Translations under genes and position numbers: made by a program
Shown: piece by piece, positions 5,844 through 20,348 of the stretch
Layout: each line of letters starts with the position of its first letter
Numbering within the stretch: position 1 is the first letter of the stretch
Origin: a virus
DNA length: 20,804 nt
Virus record (IMG/VR): IMGVR_UViG_3300017746_000213
Location: 1-20,804 of that record
Direction: 5' to 3' (one strand)
The notes under the pieces: generated by a model
Seen by the model: the letters and a program-made list of their open reading frames with translations, nothing else
Database searches by the model: none
Told to the model about the DNA's origin: nothing

Positions 5844-5916
5844 GGGGGTGTAGCTTAACGGTGAAAGCAGTCGACTCATAATCGATTGAGTGTGGGTTCG
5901 ATTCCCTCCACCCCTA
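5844..5916 (+). tRNA. tRNA with CAT anticodon (Met or Ile2)
   Basis: A complete 73-base cloverleaf. Acceptor stem GGGGGTG pairs with CACCCCT (one G-T at the end), discriminator A. D stem is GCTT/AAGC, anticodon stem GTCGA/TCGAT (one G-T), loop CTCATAA with anticodon CAT. T arm is GTGGG TTCGATT CCCTC with one T-T mismatch. No CCA is encoded. G1-T72 argues against an initiator tRNA, which normally has an unpaired 1-72. It is either elongator Met or an Ile2 tRNA whose C34 would be modified to lysidine by the host. Confidence 0.9.
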
Positions 5917-7489: not shown

Positions 7490-7639
7490 ATGTTTGAAAA
7501 TTTTCACTTAGACGACTTAGGTCGCATCACATACAGAATTGTCCGAAGATTCGGATATACTGAAGAATGGTGGTTTGAATACGACGAAAAAGGCAATAAA
7601 AATTGCACGAAGTACATTAAAGAGGAAAAACCTTTTTAA
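7490..7639 (+). CDS. 49-residue hypothetical protein
   Basis: ATG at 7490, three bases after the previous stop; the sequence begins MFENFHLDDLGRITYRIVRR and ends KYIKEEKPF. Small, soluble, aromatic-rich (EEWWFEYDEKG). Real because of its tight spacing and lack of a better frame, but unrecognised. The stop is followed at once by the long hairpin element. Confidence 0.55.
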   Translation: MFENFHLDDLGRITYRIVRRFGYTEEWWFEYDEKGNKNCTKYIKEEKPF

Positions 7640-7931
7640 ATCTTCATAACTGATTGGTAATCAATTGGTTATCTTGAAAACTTGCACGGCCGTCTCTAAC
7701 TTGCTGATTACCAATCAGTTAATCATAAAGAGTTGATAATCAATAGCTTATGAAGATTTTGGGCAAATCGACGAAAATTGACGAAAAAAAGTGAAAAAAA
7801 GTTTCTGGCACAACTGATTGGTAATCAGCAAGTTACGCGGATTTGCGGAAAAAAATGAAAAAAAGATTAAAAAGGCTATTTACATTTCTGTGAAAATAGG
7901 CTAGAATATATACATAATCAAGCCAGAAACT
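7640..7931 (+). repeat. long hairpin/promoter element, copy A (gene-free stretch)
   Basis: A 292-base gap with no gene. Arms AACTGATTGGTAATCA (7648-7663) and TGATTACCAATCAGTT (7705-7720) are perfectly complementary over 16 bases with a 41-base loop. An outer helix ATCTTCATAA (7640-7649) / TTATGAAGAT (7748-7757) encloses it. A third motif copy at 7812-7835 is the exact reverse complement of 7697-7720 over 24 bases. Then come A-rich spacers and a promoter. The same arrangement recurs at 15500-15785, sharing among other things a loop segment TTATCTTGAAAACTTGCACGG (minus one base) and GAAAAAAAGTTTCTGGCAC. Confidence 0.85.
7879..7907 (+). promoter_or_regulatory. sigma70-type promoter at end of element A
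   Basis: TTTACA at 7879-7884 and TAGAAT at 7902-7907, 17-base spacer. CTATTT (7876-7881) and AAATAG (7894-7899) form a dyad across the spacer that also occurs in the copy at 15729, a possible operator. The leader contains the shared AATCAAGC.AGAA motif. Confidence 0.8.
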
Positions 7932-8426
7932 ATGAAATCAACTCGCATCAAAAACATCAGTCTTATCCGCAATCTCATTTCATCCTCTTTCAAAGGCGAT
8001 GTTCCACGCAAAAAAATTATTGCGCTGGCAACTAGTAATGGTCTTGAGGGAAAGGACACTTGGCCGCTTCTCAAACCAGTATCAAAGGGTAGCGAACGCG
8101 GCACATACAATGTAGACAAAATGCTCGATATCGCGAAAAATATCATTTGGAGTGGAAAACAGGTAAAGGTGATTAAAAACACTCCGCCCGTAAAAGTGTT
8201 GGCGGTGAATGTTCCAAAAACAAATGCTGAAATCGTTACAGAAAAGTTAACTAAGAATGACTCTGTAAACGAAATCAACGCCATGTTTGATCAAATTCTT
8301 GAAGAAGAATCAATCGTCGATTCTGTTTCTCAACCTAAAGGTAAATGTTATGGCTACGAGCCTATCGCACCTAACGAAGACGATATCGCTGATGAGCTTA
8401 GCCTCATGGGCGTAGAAATTGCCTAA
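7932..8426 (+). CDS. hypothetical early protein
   Basis: A 164-residue soluble protein, basic at the N-terminus (MKSTRIKNISLIRNLISSSFKGDVPRK in part) and acidic at the C-terminus (PNEDDIADELSLMGVEIA). The first 80 residues could hold a helical DNA-binding-like domain (VPRKKIIALATSNGLEGKDTWPLL), but no clear helix-turn-helix can be named. It is transcribed from the strong promoter just upstream, with a predicted leader of about 18 bases. Unrecognised. Confidence 0.65.
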   Translation: MKSTRIKNISLIRNLISSSFKGDVPRKKIIALATSNGLEGKDTWPLLKPVSKGSERGTYNVDKMLDIAKNIIWSGKQVKVIKNTPPVKVLAVNVPKTNAEIVTEKLTKNDSVNEINAMFDQILEEESIVDSVSQPKGKCYGYEPIAPNEDDIADELSLMGVEIA

Positions 8427-8447: not shown

Positions 8448-8663
8448 ATGAAAGAAATGAGTAAATGTTACAAGTTGATTAAGCACTATGGAGTGGATCA
8501 TAGTGAGAGCGTGGTAGCGGTATCACATAAAATGGAAAAGCTTCACAAGGCTTTAAAGGTACTTAATGTTAAAGGATGGGAGGTCTTATCTGAAGATCAA
8601 CTCGAATGGGCACACCAGCGAGAAGGCAACTACTTCGCAGTTGTTCCAGTCACTTACCTCTAA
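8448..8663 (+). CDS. hypothetical protein
   Basis: A 71-residue protein starting in the ATATTATG context typical of this phage. Sequence MKEMSKCYKLIKHYGVDHSE, then a helix HKMEKLHKALKVLN and a beta-like end NYFAVVPVTYL. It sits 21 bases behind the previous gene and 1 base ahead of the next, so probably the second gene of the unit from the promoter at 7879. Unrecognised. Confidence 0.6.
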   Translation: MKEMSKCYKLIKHYGVDHSESVVAVSHKMEKLHKALKVLNVKGWEVLSEDQLEWAHQREGNYFAVVPVTYL

Positions 8664-8664
8664 T

Positions 8665-8955
8665 ATGAAAAAAGATAGAAACATCTATAGAGTACAAAAA
8701 GGTGAAAACTATTCACTCTATACAAAGAACGGTAAAAAGCACAACCTCAACGGGCCTGCTTTAACGATAGAAAGTGATGAGTATTACTACGTCAAAGGTG
8801 AGCGCTATACTTGGTCTCAATGGACTGATTATGTTGCTCTTTATGCATCATACGAAGAAAGTCCGGACATAGAGAGAGAATGCTTTGTGAAAGCATCCAA
8901 TTCTCCTGATGGGATATATGTTGAGATTAATACTAAAATCTGTAATACAGATTAA
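8665..8955 (+). CDS. small protein with MORN-like NGPA/YYVKG motif
   Basis: A 96-residue protein. The open frame runs back to 8566, but that would overlap the previous gene by 98 bases; the ATG at 8665 directly after the previous stop is chosen. KKHNLNGPALTIESDEYYYVKGERYTWSQW (here spanning residues about 25-54, key groups NGPA, YYVKG and WSQW) resembles the phage MORN-like pattern in which an NGPA turn is followed by a Tyr-rich strand and an (N/K)Gxx(Y/H)xxxxW element. Function unknown. Confidence 0.6.
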   Translation: MKKDRNIYRVQKGENYSLYTKNGKKHNLNGPALTIESDEYYYVKGERYTWSQWTDYVALYASYEESPDIERECFVKASNSPDGIYVEINTKICNTD

Positions 8956-9022
8956 AAAGCTTTACACTGCGCAAAAAATGTGTTAGAATATATTCAGAAT
9001 CAAGCTAGAACTACCATATGAC
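8954..9022 (+). repeat. 69-bp perfect promoter repeat, copy 1
   Basis: Identical over 69 bases to 9883-9951. It includes the A-tract, both promoter boxes, the leader and the first five bases of the coding sequence (ATGAC). The two genes behind the copies then diverge. Confidence 0.95.
8961..8989 (+). promoter_or_regulatory. sigma70-type promoter
   Basis: TTTACA at 8961-8966 and TAGAAT at 8984-8989, 17-base spacer, inside the 69-bp repeat. Leader has the AATCAAGC.AGAACTA motif. Confidence 0.8.
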
Positions 9023-9218
9023 TAAAGAAAAAATGATTAAAAACTACATTGAATCAGGCGAGCATGTGTTTATCGCACTTACACCGACCATTGGTGAGGT
9101 CTTCTCTGCAGAAGGTGTTATCAGGCGGTTGGACGCGAATGGATATTTTCAACTTGAATTTATGAAATCAATTAACGGTTTTCATATTAGCCAAGTTGAA
9201 AGTATTACAACGGATTAA
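9018..9218 (+). CDS. hypothetical early protein
   Basis: A 66-residue protein (MTKEKMIKNYIESGEHVFIA...). The C-terminal part, FSAEGVIRRLDANGYFQLEF, looks like a small beta-barrel/SH3-like fold by alternation, but no family is recognised. It is alone behind its promoter and followed by the structured-RNA region. Confidence 0.6.
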   Translation: MTKEKMIKNYIESGEHVFIALTPTIGEVFSAEGVIRRLDANGYFQLEFMKSINGFHISQVESITTD

Positions 9219-9882: not shown

Positions 9883-9951
9883 AAAAAGCTTTACACTGCG
9901 CAAAAAATGTGTTAGAATATATTCAGAATCAAGCTAGAACTACCATATGAC
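9883..9951 (+). repeat. 69-bp perfect promoter repeat, copy 2
   Basis: Identical to 8954-9022; offset 929 bases. The difference after ATGAC is a C for T and then the genes diverge. Confidence 0.95.
9890..9918 (+). promoter_or_regulatory. sigma70-type promoter
   Basis: TTTACA at 9890-9895 and TAGAAT at 9913-9918, 17-base spacer, in the second 69-bp repeat. Confidence 0.8.
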
Positions 9952-12601: not shown

Positions 12602-13447
12602 ATGAGAGTTCTCTGTAGAAGCCAGCACCTGCATCACCATAAAGCAATAGTCGCTTTTACTTATGGTTTAGAAAAATCTAGTAAAGTAGAGATTGATTAT
12701 TTCGATCACGACAATTTGCCCACGGGAAAATACGATTTTGCTATTTGTTGGGGTGCGAGAGCTATGAAGGAATTGAAAGCGTACACTAAAACTAAAAATT
12801 GTTTAGTGTTTGAAAACGCGTATTTAAATAATGTTCAGTCTCCACAAAAAGAGTGGGTATCTTTAGGCTGGAACGGTCTTAACGGTAGAGCAGATTTTTG
12901 TAACAAAAATTCTCCAGATGATCGTTGGAAAAAACATTTTAATGATGGTAGATTAAAGGAGTATACCGACGGTGATTATATTCTTATTCCTCTTCAGATT
13001 CAAGGAGATCAATCACTCAAATATATCGATTGGGGTGTCAATTATCAGACCATGTGTGAATCAATTAGAAAACACACAGATCTACCAATTGTAATTAGAG
13101 ACCATCCAACAAGGCCAAACACACAACCAAAAATAGAAGGAGTAAAGAATGTTAAATATGATGATTTCAAGTTACCTATTCAAACTGCAATTAGTGGAGC
13201 AAAATGCGTTGTTACCATTAATAGTAATGCTGGTGTTGATGCTGCCTTGGCTGGAAAGCCAGTTATTTCTCTGGATCAAGGTTCTATGGTCTGGAATATA
13301 TCAGTGCACGACTTTAAAAGTATAAATAGCCCTAAGTTTATCGATAGAACACAATGGTGTAACGATATTGCTTATGCACAATGGCATCCAAGTGAGTTAG
13401 AAAGTGGAAAAGCCTGGGATCATTTAAAAAGTAAGCTTAAACTTTAG
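12602..13447 (+). CDS. KpsS/Capsule_synth-like glycosyltransferase
   Basis: A 281-residue protein with a GT-B-like C-terminal half. ILIPLQIQGDQSL (residues 127-139) marks the start of the nucleotide-sugar-binding domain. LPIVIRDHPTRP (161-172) carries the RxHP-type motif, and CVVTINSNAGVDAALAGKPVISL (202-224, key NSNAGVDA) is the conserved Ser/Gly loop typical of the capsule/Kdo-transferase group. Those enzymes add sugars to lipid or polysaccharide acceptors; a phage copy could modify host surface glycans or, less likely, phage DNA. No signal peptide. It is followed by a promoter. An internal TATAAATA occurs at 13321. Confidence 0.65.
   Translation: MRVLCRSQHLHHHKAIVAFTYGLEKSSKVEIDYFDHDNLPTGKYDFAICWGARAMKELKAYTKTKNCLVFENAYLNNVQSPQKEWVSLGWNGLNGRADFCNKNSPDDRWKKHFNDGRLKEYTDGDYILIPLQIQGDQSLKYIDWGVNYQTMCESIRKHTDLPIVIRDHPTRPNTQPKIEGVKNVKYDDFKLPIQTAISGAKCVVTINSNAGVDAALAGKPVISLDQGSMVWNISVHDFKSINSPKFIDRTQWCNDIAYAQWHPSELESGKAWDHLKSKLKL
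13321..13328 (+). promoter_or_regulatory. possible intragenic late promoter
   Basis: TATAAATA inside the glycosyltransferase gene (coding Ser-Ile-Asn-Ser). An exact late box, but it may be chance; the next ATG is 157 bases downstream. Confidence 0.3.
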
Positions 13448-14666: not shown

Positions 14667-15443
14667 ATGAAAAATAAAAAAACACTAAGTATCACCGCGC
14701 TTGTTATTGGTCTATTCGCCATTAGCATGCCTGCGGCGCAATCAGAAGAGACTCCTGAAATCGTTATTTGTGAGGCTACAAAATGTAGTAAAAGCGTCAT
14801 TTGCGACCTTGCTAATGGATTTGACCTGTTTCTTACTCAGCCAATCGGACTAGTTTCTGAAGTTGGTTTTTTCGAAGAAAGGATCGATGGAGGTCTATTT
14901 ACACATTCTGATGCTCTTTTTGTTAAAGCAAAAGGTACAGTCGGAACTGTGTATGGTAAGAATTTGGTAACATCTTTGGAGTTTGCAGATGGAAAAGAGG
15001 ATTCATTCTTCGGAGGATTTGTTGGTCTTGAAGACGATAACAAATATGTAGGAGCAAGGCTTGGAACTAATTATGCTGATGGAGACCTCAGTGGCGACAC
15101 TGATTTGGAACTTAATTTTGGCGTTGCATGGTTGCCACTACCATTGCTTAAAGGAGTTTATACAGGCGTTGATTTTGCTCTTGTTTCAGGAGGAGGCTAC
15201 GATGTTTCGTTAAATCTTACTCGTGATGTTGGAACGTTCTTTAATGTCGATGTTGCTGCTTTTGGAGAAGTAGGAAAAACGTGGGGATATACAGACAATT
15301 ACGAATATGTCCTTGGGGCTCTTCGAGGGTCATATAATCTTTATGGTGGAACCCTGTATGGTCAAGTTAGTACCGTAGACAACGAAGTTCAAACTGATGG
15401 ATTCGAAAGTGTATTCCAAGTTGGTTATACATTGTCGTTTTAA
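14667..15443 (+). CDS. exported outer-membrane beta-barrel protein, phage-encoded
   Basis: A 258-residue protein. Residues 1-26 are a signal peptide: basic MKNKK, hydrophobic core LSITALVIGLFAIS, then MPAAQS with probable cleavage after Ser26. The mature part has two short Cys-containing stretches (VICEATKCSKSVICDL, residues 33-48) followed by alternating beta strands rich in Gly/Phe/Tyr (FFGGFVGLEDDNKYVGARLG, YVLGALRGSYNLYGGTLYG). The C-terminus FQVGYTLSF ends in Phe with alternating aromatics, the usual barrel-assembly signal. No phage-structural family is recognised. It ends 24 bases before a terminator, with its own late box, so it is a single late transcript. A role in superinfection exclusion or host envelope change is a guess. 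Confidence 0.75.
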   Translation: MKNKKTLSITALVIGLFAISMPAAQSEETPEIVICEATKCSKSVICDLANGFDLFLTQPIGLVSEVGFFEERIDGGLFTHSDALFVKAKGTVGTVYGKNLVTSLEFADGKEDSFFGGFVGLEDDNKYVGARLGTNYADGDLSGDTDLELNFGVAWLPLPLLKGVYTGVDFALVSGGGYDVSLNLTRDVGTFFNVDVAAFGEVGKTWGYTDNYEYVLGALRGSYNLYGGTLYGQVSTVDNEVQTDGFESVFQVGYTLSF

Positions 15444-15467
15444 TTAGAAAATAGCATAAATCTATTG

Positions 15468-15498
15468 AAACCTCTACCTTTTTGGTAGAGGTTTTTTT
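15468..15498 (+). terminator. Rho-independent terminator
   Basis: AAACCTCTACC (15468-15478) pairs with GGTAGAGGTTT (15484-15494) around a 5-base T loop, followed by a T run. It terminates the outer-membrane protein transcript. Confidence 0.9.
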
Positions 15499-15499
15499 G

Positions 15500-15785
15500 T
15501 TTTTACATAACTCACTTGTAATCAACAGCTTATCTTGAAAACTTGCACGGACAGTTATAACTTGCTGATTACAAGTGAGTTATTCATAAAGTACTGGTAC
15601 TCAATAAGTTATGATGATTTTGGCCGTAAAAGCTAAAAACTAGCAAAAAAGGTGAAAAAAAGTTTCTGGCACAACTGATTGGTAATCAACAAGTTATGAA
15701 AAACCGCAAAAAAAGATTAAAAAAGCTATTTACATATCTATGAAAATAGGTTAGAATATATTCAGAATCAAGCTAGAACTACTAT
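15500..15785 (+). repeat. long hairpin/promoter element, copy B (gene-free stretch)
   Basis: No gene is seen between the terminator and 15786. Arms AACTCACTTGTAATCA (15509-15524) and TGATTACAAGTGAGTT (15566-15581) are perfectly complementary with a 41-base loop, the same loop length as copy A. Three positions differ from copy A and are compensated on the other arm. A motif copy of the type AACTGATTGGTAATCA lies downstream (15673-15688), as in copy A, and the element ends in the promoter at 15729. Confidence 0.85.
15729..15757 (+). promoter_or_regulatory. sigma70-type promoter at end of element B
   Basis: TTTACA at 15729-15734 and TAGAAT at 15752-15757, 17-base spacer; shares the CTATTT/AAATAG dyad and leader motif with 7879. 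Confidence 0.8.
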
Positions 15786-16268
15786 ATGACTACCACAACT
15801 ACAGAAAAATTCACCCAGGTTTTCACTCAAATCCACGAAAATTATGGTGCCCATGATTGGGATGGTAATGGCGAATGCCCTAATTATTGGAAAGCTAAAG
15901 GAGGCACAACGTACATCCTCGCGGAAGATGTTGATGTTTCCGCCTTTATCAAAGCTATTGAAAGCGAAGACGACTATTTCACGGAAAAAGTTAGACACCA
16001 GGAGGTTGTTGAAGACCCATACGAAAATGTTGAGTCTTGGGATCCACCAACATGGGTTACGGGTGCAAAAGATGGTTTCTTCCTTGATATCACACAAACA
16101 GCTGAAAACAGCTCTTTACACCCAAAAATTGCTGTGAAAAAAACTGTCACATGTCTTAGTTTTGAGGGTTATTTTAACCATCTTGACACAGTGTACACTA
16201 CTGTTGATGGCGAAATGCTTTCGTCGTCTAAAATCGAAGCTTGGCTTAAAGCAAATCCTTCTCGTTAA
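15786..16268 (+). CDS. hypothetical protein with CPNYWKxKGG motif
   Basis: A 160-residue soluble protein. After a Thr-rich start (MTTTTTEKFTQVFTQIHENY), the motif ECPNYWKAKGGTTYILAEDVD (about residues 30-50, in pieces CPNYW and KGGTTYIL) resembles a pattern seen in hypothetical proteins of marine phages. The rest alternates strands and acidic loops. Driven by the promoter at 15729 with a leader of about 21 bases. Function unknown. Confidence 0.6.
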   Translation: MTTTTTEKFTQVFTQIHENYGAHDWDGNGECPNYWKAKGGTTYILAEDVDVSAFIKAIESEDDYFTEKVRHQEVVEDPYENVESWDPPTWVTGAKDGFFLDITQTAENSSLHPKIAVKKTVTCLSFEGYFNHLDTVYTTVDGEMLSSSKIEAWLKANPSR

Positions 16269-16311: not shown

Positions 16312-16340
16312 TTTACACAACGCATTTTTTATGTTAGAAT
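16312..16340 (+). promoter_or_regulatory. sigma70-type promoter
   Basis: TTTACA at 16312-16317 and TAGAAT at 16335-16340, 17-base spacer. The -10 region overlaps an upstream in-frame ATG at 16331, arguing for the ATG at 16370 as the true start of the next gene. Confidence 0.8.
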
Positions 16341-19043: not shown

Positions 19044-20348
19044 ATGGCTACCTTTATACCACAACCATCTGACGATGAAGATCGTCTAAAACTATCACTC
19101 GAACAAGCTAAAGATTTCGCTAATAGATTTTGTCAGCCTGAAGACAATGATTTAGTAGAAGACTTCGATGAGTCGGCTCGCGAGGCTGCGTGGCGTTTAC
19201 TTCAGGCACTAGAAGAGGTACAACACCAACAATGCGATGAAAATGTTTGCGAAAAGTGTAAAGAAATAGAAGAGGAAGAATCGATAGAAGAAATAGAAGA
19301 GGAAGAATCGATAGAACAAGTCAACGAAGATAATGGAGAGCCAAAAAAAGAAGTTAAGGGAGCTGAAACGACTGAAACTTCAACTATGGATAAACTAGGA
19401 GAGATTGCTGAAAAGAATAAAGACATCCTTGACAAAGCAGCTAAAACTACTGCAGCAGCAGCAGCCGCAGGAGCCACTACTCAAACAGCAAGCGCAGCAA
19501 CTGGGTTAAGCGCGTTTGTCAGCGAAACTGTTCAAAAAGTTGGCACGATTGGAGTGGCTGGCACAATGTCAATTGGTAGTGGTGCTTATTTTCAAGCAAA
19601 AACTAGTAAAGAAAAAGGAACTGAAATTGCTGTTGTTGCCGAGCAAGAGCATCAAATATTTTCTAGTTTAAACGACTTTACTGAATCAACCATTGGATTT
19701 CAACCGTTCGCTTCTGTAACAGACACTATTGTTGAATACGCTGAAGAAGGATATGGTGACGTTATAGGAACTTCTGAAGAAGGATACGAAGGTGATGGTG
19801 GTGAAGGTGATGGTGGTGAAGGTGATGGTGAAGGTGGCGATGGTGAAGGTGAAGGTGGCGATGGTGAAGGTGAAGGTGGCGATGGTGAAGAAAAACCAGA
19901 AGAAAATTCTGAAGAAGGCAATAACGAAGAAGCTACTAAACAAGAGGAGGAAACTGAAGAAACCGAAGAGGAAACTGAAGAAACCGAAGAGGAAACCGAA
20001 GAGGAAACTGAAGAGAAAGTAGACGAAGAGGAAACTGAAGAGAAAGTAGACGAAGAGGAAACTGAAGAAACCGAAGAGGAGAAGGCTGAAGAGGAAGAGG
20101 AATCTGAAGAGGAGCAAGAGGAGGAGGAATCTGAAGAGGAGCAAGAGGAGGAGGAATCTGAAGAGGAAGAGGAAGAGCAAGAGGAGGAGGAATCTGAAGA
20201 AAAAGGGGAGCCTGAAGAACAGTCTGAAGAGGGCGAAGAGAAAAAAACAGATATTGAGAATTCAGAAGAGACATTTGAACTAGAAGAAGATGATCAAGTC
20301 ACTCAAGTCCCTGATGTGATTAAACTCCCTAACATGATAAGAAAATAG
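19044..20348 (+). CDS. acidic low-complexity late protein
   Basis: A 434-residue protein. Residues 1-75 are soluble, with Cys64, Cys69 and Cys72 (CDENVCEKC) followed by IEEEESIEEIEEEESIE repeats. Residues 130-185 are Ala/Gly-rich and hydrophobic (KAAKTTAAAAAAGATTQTASA, then VGTIGVAGTMSIGSGAYF), possibly a membrane-inserting segment. From about 233 to 418 the chain is almost entirely Glu/Gly/Asp and Thr/Gln/Ser repeats. No signal peptide. The late promoter argues for a virion or assembly role. Repeats are seen at the DNA level (see tandem repeat entries). No family recognised; a chance pattern is unlikely given the single long open frame. Confidence 0.7.
   Translation: MATFIPQPSDDEDRLKLSLEQAKDFANRFCQPEDNDLVEDFDESAREAAWRLLQALEEVQHQQCDENVCEKCKEIEEEESIEEIEEEESIEQVNEDNGEPKKEVKGAETTETSTMDKLGEIAEKNKDILDKAAKTTAAAAAAGATTQTASAATGLSAFVSETVQKVGTIGVAGTMSIGSGAYFQAKTSKEKGTEIAVVAEQEHQIFSSLNDFTESTIGFQPFASVTDTIVEYAEEGYGDVIGTSEEGYEGDGGEGDGGEGDGEGGDGEGEGGDGEGEGGDGEEKPEENSEEGNNEEATKQEEETEETEEETEETEEETEEETEEKVDEEETEEKVDEEETEETEEEKAEEEEESEEEQEEEESEEEQEEEESEEEEEEQEEEESEEKGEPEEQSEEGEEKKTDIENSEETFELEEDDQVTQVPDVIKLPNMIRK
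19833..19888 (+). repeat. 21-bp tandem repeat (Gly-Gly-Asp-Gly-Glu-Gly-Glu)
   Basis: Unit GGTGGCGATGGTGAAGGTGA plus A, about 2.7 copies from 19833. Preceded by related GGTGATGGTGGTGAA units from about 19790. Confidence 0.85.
19947..20082 (+). repeat. 21-bp and related tandem repeats (Glu-Thr-Glu-Glu)
   Basis: GAGGAAACTGAAGAAACCGA plus A occurs at 19947 and 19968; variants with GAGAAAGTAGACGAA follow, repeated twice. Confidence 0.85.
20097..20200 (+). repeat. 27-bp tandem repeat (Glu/Ser/Gln)
   Basis: A 27-base unit beginning GAGGAATCTGAAGAGGAGCA occurs at 20097-20123 and 20124-20150, with a variant following. Confidence 0.85.

Follow-up and report, generated by a model that had tools for sequence, protein, structure and literature searches.

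Two copies of a long hairpin element lie in the window, the whole 20,804-nucleotide stretch of viral DNA analyzed here, and their arms differ in a matched manner. The locus therefore raises the question of whether the hairpin itself is what selection maintains, or whether the element has another function of which the hairpin is a consequence. The PhoH, exonuclease, and endolysin proteins of this 20.8-kb window gave phage-family matches, and its closest PhoH proteins in a phage collection, at about 50% identity, belong to cyanophages, which we take to be T4-like. Megablast of the window against phage GenBank records returned no match, and short matches in six phage GenBank records covered at most 12% of the element. 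Rfam searches of the window at gathering scores yielded a single match, a tRNA at 5844-5916. A coding reading of the copy 1 element was ruled out, since no open reading frame longer than 36 amino acids overlaps 7640-7878.

A search for relatives recovered array elements in two further loci, L012, which is 96% identical to copy 1, and L178, which was located by pattern search. Copy 1 and L012 are not independent of each other. Two other loci, L007 (99.9% identity over 7.7 kb) and L088 (99.8% over 13 kb), come from one metagenome, are near-identical to the window, and do not count as independent sequences.

The first-pass annotation had described perfect 16-bp arms around a 41-base loop. The arms are indeed 100% complementary and the loop is 41 nucleotides long in both copies, but the arms measure 17 bp in copy 1 and 18 bp in copy 2; the DNA fold of copy 2 is the same 18-bp stem. 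Folded as single strands, copy 1, copy 2, and L178 had z values of -3.4 to -6.0. No perfect inverted repeat of at least 17 bp whose loop did not exceed 100 nucleotides arose in 100 dinucleotide shuffles of the window, the longest being 14 bp. Alignment of the two copies (77% identity over 231 nucleotides) bore out the three reported arm differences, G/C, T/C, and G/T, each of which is compensated on the opposite arm. When the promoter was included, identity in the alignment to 15506-15778 was 79%. The loop sequence TTATCTTGAAAACTTGCACGG was rejected as a conserved motif, given the different loop in L178. It was found in three stretches of viral contigs, from the L007/L088 metagenome and the L012 contig, and its 17-base core had a chance-like 14 matches in cellular genomes.

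The earlier reading had overlooked two further sites (c and d) in each element, an outer stem in copy 1, fixed spacings, and phased A-tracts (Table 1). Each element consists of four 25-bp near-palindromes, a to d, with the consensus TAANNNNTTGATNATCAANNNNTTA, which is the published IHF consensus on both strands, back to back. That consensus is printed as TAAnnnnTTGATW and WATCAAnnnnTTR in the relevant passages of PMC10380432. Sites were listed if they matched at least 12 of the 16 consensus positions. They are two-fold symmetric, and the four "free" gap bases are mildly biased (A at a frequency of 0.56 at +8).

Table 1. Coordinates of the two elements and neighboring features in the window, with positions of GTTCANNTGAAC in related loci
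Feature	Position	Strand	Remarks
Outer-stem segment, copy 1	7638-7759		7638-7646 and 7751-7759 can pair around the a/b hairpin
Copy 1 site a, center 7659	7647-7671	+	15/16 consensus; exact WATCAANNNNTTR at 7659-7671; left 17 bp are the 5' hairpin arm (7647-7663)
Copy 1 site b, center 7709	7697-7721	-	14/16 consensus; one mismatch to WATCAANNNNTTR; 7705-7721 is the 3' hairpin arm, perfect complement of 7647-7663
Copy 1 site c, center 7738	7726-7750	+	16/16 consensus; WATCAANNNNTTR on both strands
Copy 1 site d, center 7823	7811-7835	+	13/16 consensus; one mismatch to WATCAANNNNTTR; 7812-7835 is a perfect 24-nt complement of 7697-7720 (site b)
Copy 1 phased A-tracts, both sides of site d	7774-7873	+	Center spacings 11.5, 10, (55), 9, 10
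Copy 1 sigma-70-like promoter TTTACA-N17-TAGAAT	7879-7907	+	Consensus match
Gene 3' of copy 1	7932-8426	+	164 aa; no PHROG/Pfam match
Predicted intrinsic terminator of gene 5' of copy 2	15467-15495	+	12 pairs, T tail; consensus match only
Copy 2 site a, center 15520	15508-15532	+	13/16 consensus; exact WATCAANNNNTTR; arm 15507-15524
Copy 2 site b, center 15570	15558-15582	-	12/16 consensus; one mismatch to WATCAANNNNTTR; arm 15566-15583; pairs with site a
Copy 2 site c, center 15599	15587-15611	+	13/16 consensus; one mismatch to WATCAANNNNTTR
Copy 2 site d, center 15684	15672-15696	+	14/16 consensus; exact WATCAANNNNTTR
Copy 2 phased A-tracts, both sides of site d	15628-15724	+	Center spacings 7.5, 10.5, 10.5, (43), 10, 10.5
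Copy 2 sigma-70-like promoter TTTACA-N17-TAGAAT	15729-15757	+	Consensus match
Gene 3' of copy 2	15786-16268	+	160 aa; no PHROG/Pfam match
GTTCANNTGAAC in related loci	L008 14267, 14838; L013 10550, 11129; L016 9555; L018 13451, 14022; L021 17498, 18069		

All five exact WATCAANNNNTTR matches of the window fall inside the two arrays, which make up 1.8% of its length. Their total is ordinary (5 versus 2.33 expected; 9 of 100 shuffles reach 5), and it is their concentration in 1.8% of the window that is unusual. The stricter form TAAnnnnTTGATW occurred five times in the window and four times each in the examined sequence of L178 and L012, every one inside an array.

The arrangement of the sites is constant to the base pair. 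The spacings between site centers, 50, 29, and 85 bp, are identical in copy 1, copy 2, L012, and L178, with overlapping 12/16 matches in copy 1 and L012 excluded, and the four elements align without a gap over 122 columns. Between sites a and b, L178 has only 12 of 25 bases in common with either copy, despite the same spacing. The distance from the center of site d to the start of the -35 hexamer is 56 bp in copy 1, L012, and L178; copy 2 is 11 bp shorter here, at 45 bp. A-tracts fill the interval between sites c and d and that between site d and the promoter, with their centers mostly 9 to 11.5 bp apart. This phasing was equaled in 3, 20, 2, and 0 of 2,000 unit shuffles for copy 1, copy 2, L012, and L178, respectively. 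Four A-tracts follow site d in L178 and three in each of the other elements, and the center of the last one lies 7.5 to 8 bp before the -35 hexamer in all four (8 in copy 1, 7.5 in copy 2). Spacing that is exact to the base pair, together with a single length change close to a helical turn, argues for an architecture of double-stranded DNA. We are highly confident that the element is such an array of candidate protein-binding sites.

The similarity between the copies extends through TTTACA-N17-TAGAAT. A promoter-like sequence after each element, as proposed earlier, was thus found, while the attributes "early" and "host-type" are sequence-based suppositions. Simple scans of the window gave no excess of promoters (44 versus 39.6 expected from shuffles) or of terminators (7 versus 7.8). 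What lends the promoter credence nonetheless is that cassettes like it are repeated in front of several genes, both in the window and in its relatives. An array accompanies two of the nine promoter-like matches of this type in the window. Similar cassettes with a common downstream leader (ATATATTCAGAATCAA...) were noticed at 8961-8989, 9890-9918, 15729-15757, and 16312-16340, before several small genes. A sigma-54 promoter based on TGGCAC near site d was discarded, as the -24/-12 spacing did not fit on inspection.

The same setting was found in L178, where a homologue of gene 14667-15443 (68% identity over 258 amino acids) is followed by a terminator-like sequence, the array, the promoter, and a homologue of gene 7932 (34% over 143 amino acids). 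Gene 14667-15443 is without a PHROG or Pfam family match. At the place that corresponds to copy 1, L016 carries the same promoter type with a different palindrome, GTTCANNTGAAC, instead of the array. In L008, L013, L018, and L021, GTTCANNTGAAC and the same promoter type occur after homologues of gene 14667 and again before homologues of gene 7932. This palindrome, which is often followed by ACC and at times arranged in tandem, was present in 11 of 312 loci, and none was found in the examined sequence of the window, L012, and L178. Its further occurrences are in L019, L162, L185, L189, L258, and L288. The presence of either GTTCANNTGAAC or the array at like promoters suggests that the kind of site in this position is exchangeable. 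L017 and L019 have this promoter type with neither array nor GTTCANNTGAAC close by. Comparison with the array-free places in L016 and L021 showed that the borders of the element are not sharp.

Among the functions suggested for the element at first, an operator set is the one that these results support, with a site array placed before a promoter. On balance, we favor the reading that it consists of IHF-type sites arrayed in phase at phage promoters, probably bound by a host protein of the IHF/HU type. The element would act as double-stranded DNA, a regulatory array that precedes a phage promoter, with four sites that each present the exact IHF consensus or one mismatch to it, some of them on both strands. 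A host DNABII (IHF/HU-type) protein would bind these sites and, together with the intrinsic curvature of the A-tracts, could fold approximately 190 bp into a compact nucleoprotein structure. The folded structure may set the activity of the adjacent early promoter, either by activating it or by excluding other nucleoid proteins. We infer the protein, the direction of its effect, and the early use of the promoter from sequence. No HU/IHF gene (PF00216) was found in 30 phage records, mostly fragments, by a search whose control was positive in 9 of 14 genomes; this result and the spread of the sites over phages without similar flanks point to a host protein. The early promoter Pe of phage Mu is acted on by IHF, according to the passages of PMC3820752 that concern it. 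On this reading, the hairpin follows from the inverted orientation of two near-palindromes, sites a and b, and the matching arms, which are real, are probably a by-product of the site array.

Whether the a/b hairpin is functional in its own right, as an extruded cruciform, a single-stranded DNA hairpin, or RNA, with arms kept paired by selection, was assessed from the substitutions in copy 1, copy 2, L012, and L178. All four elements have perfect arms of 17 to 18 bp. Of the 18 pairs of the inner helix, 13 are invariant, 4 changed on both sides, and none changed on one side; the remaining pair, which closes the loop, is unpaired in three of the four sequences. When both stems were scored jointly, four of five covariation measures were reached by only 4 to 7 of 500 shuffles, and 150 of 500 reached the fifth (further pair types). 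These figures are not to be read as a probability because only four sequences in about three lineages contribute. These two-sided changes fit selection for pairing, as do the stability of the folds and one compensated outer-stem change in L012. The outer stem otherwise speaks against it: one of its nine pairs is invariant, three changed on one side, and five, including the two-sided one, are unpaired in at least one sequence, the stem being lost in copy 2 and L178. Inverted matching was also no better than direct matching in 38 clusters of sites outside open reading frames, where the match within elements was 3.68 (direct) versus 3.71 (inverted) of 8 free positions, and that between elements was 2.74 and 2.77. 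This comparison used all loci except L001-L006, L087, L089-L106, and L203, included those of two control scans, and covered sites of at least 13/16 (182 pairs in 44 clusters, of which the 38 lie outside open reading frames of at least 80 amino acids); most of the loci came from searches in which part of the site was fixed. Arms that changed without keeping their pairing, the observation named in advance as contrary to a selected hairpin, were found at the same promoter in L023 and L024, though these are distant relatives. Covariation had been taken as evidence for a hairpin under selection; the compensation is real, but selection for it finds little support. Template switching between inverted repeats makes or mends stems in single events and leaves the same compensation, as described in parts of PMC8794818, and the missing one-sided intermediates suit such events better than stepwise compensation. 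Since one-sided changes are absent, as fits template switching, the identity of the arms is probably mutational, and we infer that the identical arms in the window's lineage probably stem from template switching between the arms during replication. The position of the element upstream of the promoter, with copy 2 behind a predicted terminator, makes an RNA role unlikely. The RNA switch suggested at first was accordingly abandoned, and an RNA element was rejected on this position and on the lack of any Rfam family at gathering scores other than the tRNA. Taken with these points, a functional hairpin is improbable.

The sites could also be operators of a dedicated dimeric regulator of host or phage, distinct from DNABII proteins, which would act as a repressor or an activator of early genes. 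Asymmetry is usual for IHF sites. The two-fold symmetry seen here is compatible with a homodimeric regulator as well. At matching places, five relatives have the different palindrome GTTCANNTGAAC, a pattern unexpected of a universal host factor and expected if phage lineages swap regulators. Together with the scarcity of the strict palindrome among cellular genomes (3/80, 0/120, and 0/12), the symmetry and this exchange leave room for another dimeric regulator. However, the same core is found in phage contigs whose flanks are dissimilar, a few times next to promoter matches of the Bacteroidota type, so that a very widespread protein would be needed. The conserved blocks with their 4-base gap are, moreover, those of the IHF consensus, and no such regulator was recognized among 14 proteins of the window (two scans of 10 each, 6 in both). 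We consider a dedicated regulator unlikely. Iterated sites, an AT-rich neighborhood, and IHF-type sites are common in replication origins. The element has all three, and in a crAssphage one lone site of this kind precedes a RepL-like gene, an anecdotal case given the match of E = 3. An origin with iterons, also proposed at first, is very unlikely all the same: within this 20.8-kb fragment the GC skew keeps its sign across both elements and the elements hold no initiator boxes, the window's sole TTATNCACA being at 13372, outside both. In addition, the two copies are 7.9 kb apart with a promoter after each, and the site pair of L024 stands before a promoter-like sequence and tRNA genes. We give hardly any credence to a MITE-like mobile element with IHF sites that spreads a promoter cassette, comparable to Correia elements, which have inverted repeats and an IHF site in the portion of PMC2229807 that describes them. 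It would account for two copies in the window and none at the corresponding places of L016, L021, L008, L013, and L018. Against it, the site clusters in the window and L007-L087 are all before promoter-like sequences, only copy 1 and L012 have the full outer inverted repeat, and the gene order of L178 implies that segmental duplication could explain the two copies.

Sites of the IHF type in pairs were also found beyond the window's clade. Paired TTGATNATCAA occurred in 104 stretches of viral contigs versus 8 for a dinucleotide-matched control, and the flanks left free by this search again showed the TAA and TTA on the outside of the IHF consensus, four bases off. Eighty of the 104 stretches were analyzed, giving 87 pairs in 48 clusters. 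An inverted-pair scan of viral contigs gave 75 stretches versus 23 in its control; pairs with a flank of fewer than 14 bases were removed from this set. A spacing of 48 to 51 bp was seen in 16 of the 38 clusters outside open reading frames (binomial, 2e-5). The excess was weaker in the orientation-free set (13 of 48; 0.007). The peak in pair spacing across the wider family is thus a moderate one, with other pairs at 36 to 47 and 54 to 65 bp. In two loci, L023 and L024, the paired sites are exactly 57 bp apart, with the second center 19 bp from the -35 hexamer, and the pair spacing is 58 bp in L139 and 57 bp in L224. A promoter match within 160 bp accompanied 10 of 37 wider-family pairs (shuffle mean, 5.4; 4 of 200 shuffles had as many), and the link to promoters can therefore be called firm for two sets only, the window's clade and the group of L023, L024, L139, and L224. 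Some of these promoter matches are of the Bacteroidota type.

Weak matches were noted in crAss-like, Lak, and other phages and in a plasmid. Each of the five stretches examined held one site, one of them with a second, weaker site 267 bp away, and the plasmid matches had E values of at least 0.7. Position 317 of L308 (crAssphage BK010471.1) is a single 16/16 site in noncoding DNA, approximately 140 bp upstream of the RepL-like gene. In L024, the stretch 8654-9030 contains the 57-bp site pair, the promoter-like sequence, and then tRNA-Thr and tRNA-Arg genes. L069, another phage with a related PhoH gene, has four inverted AATCAATARCTTAGA-type sites before a promoter-like sequence at 2390-2550. 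We found no paper on the motif in the open PMC literature. It is possible, if still a tentative idea, that 25-bp palindromes with a double IHF consensus, set at fixed distances that relate to the helix and are often 48 to 51 bp, form a widespread class of phage control elements in diverse phages, probably with hosts of different phyla, and that in the window's lineage bending may also drive extrusion of the arms. If so, one conserved host bending protein would have been co-opted repeatedly in the same geometry.

IHF sites are part of the early control region of lambda pL. Another such region is that of Pe in phage Mu (PMC3820752). The element described here resembles these two regions in its IHF-consensus sites before a promoter of the sigma-70 type, presumably early here as well, and in the proposed bending architecture. 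Unlike them, it has four near-palindromic candidate sites at fixed spacing and phased A-tracts and belongs to a phage with T4-type genes. The Correia/NEMIS elements of Neisseria, which are MITEs, are likewise short repeats between genes that combine inverted repeats with an IHF site, and some of them contain putative promoters (PMC2229807). They have one site, in contrast to four here; the present copies have no terminal repeat in common, the array stands before promoter-like sequences in the window's clade, and there is no evidence of transposition. REP sequences are defined by a GTAG/CGTC tag beside a palindrome and by high copy number (in part after PMC3733652). Like REP/BIME sequences, the element is intergenic palindromic DNA able to form stem-loops; unlike them, its arms begin with TAAC and have no GTAG/CGTC tag, and it is AT-rich and present in two copies in the window with a consensus of protein sites. 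Iteron-type origins share with it the iterated sites and AT-rich DNA but differ in that the 20.8-kb fragment has no skew switch and no cluster of DnaA boxes.

If the reading as an array of IHF-type sites is right, it would provide a sequence-level geometry for the use that marine phages make of a host nucleoid protein at their promoters, and the pattern of palindromic double IHF sites, fixed spacing, and phased A-tracts could be searched for in any virome. The arms would also be a clear case in which compensatory changes need not imply a functional hairpin. Elsewhere in the window, gene 19044-20348 encodes long acidic low-complexity repeats at 19780-20250, consisting of Gly-Asp-Gly-Glu and Glu-rich runs.
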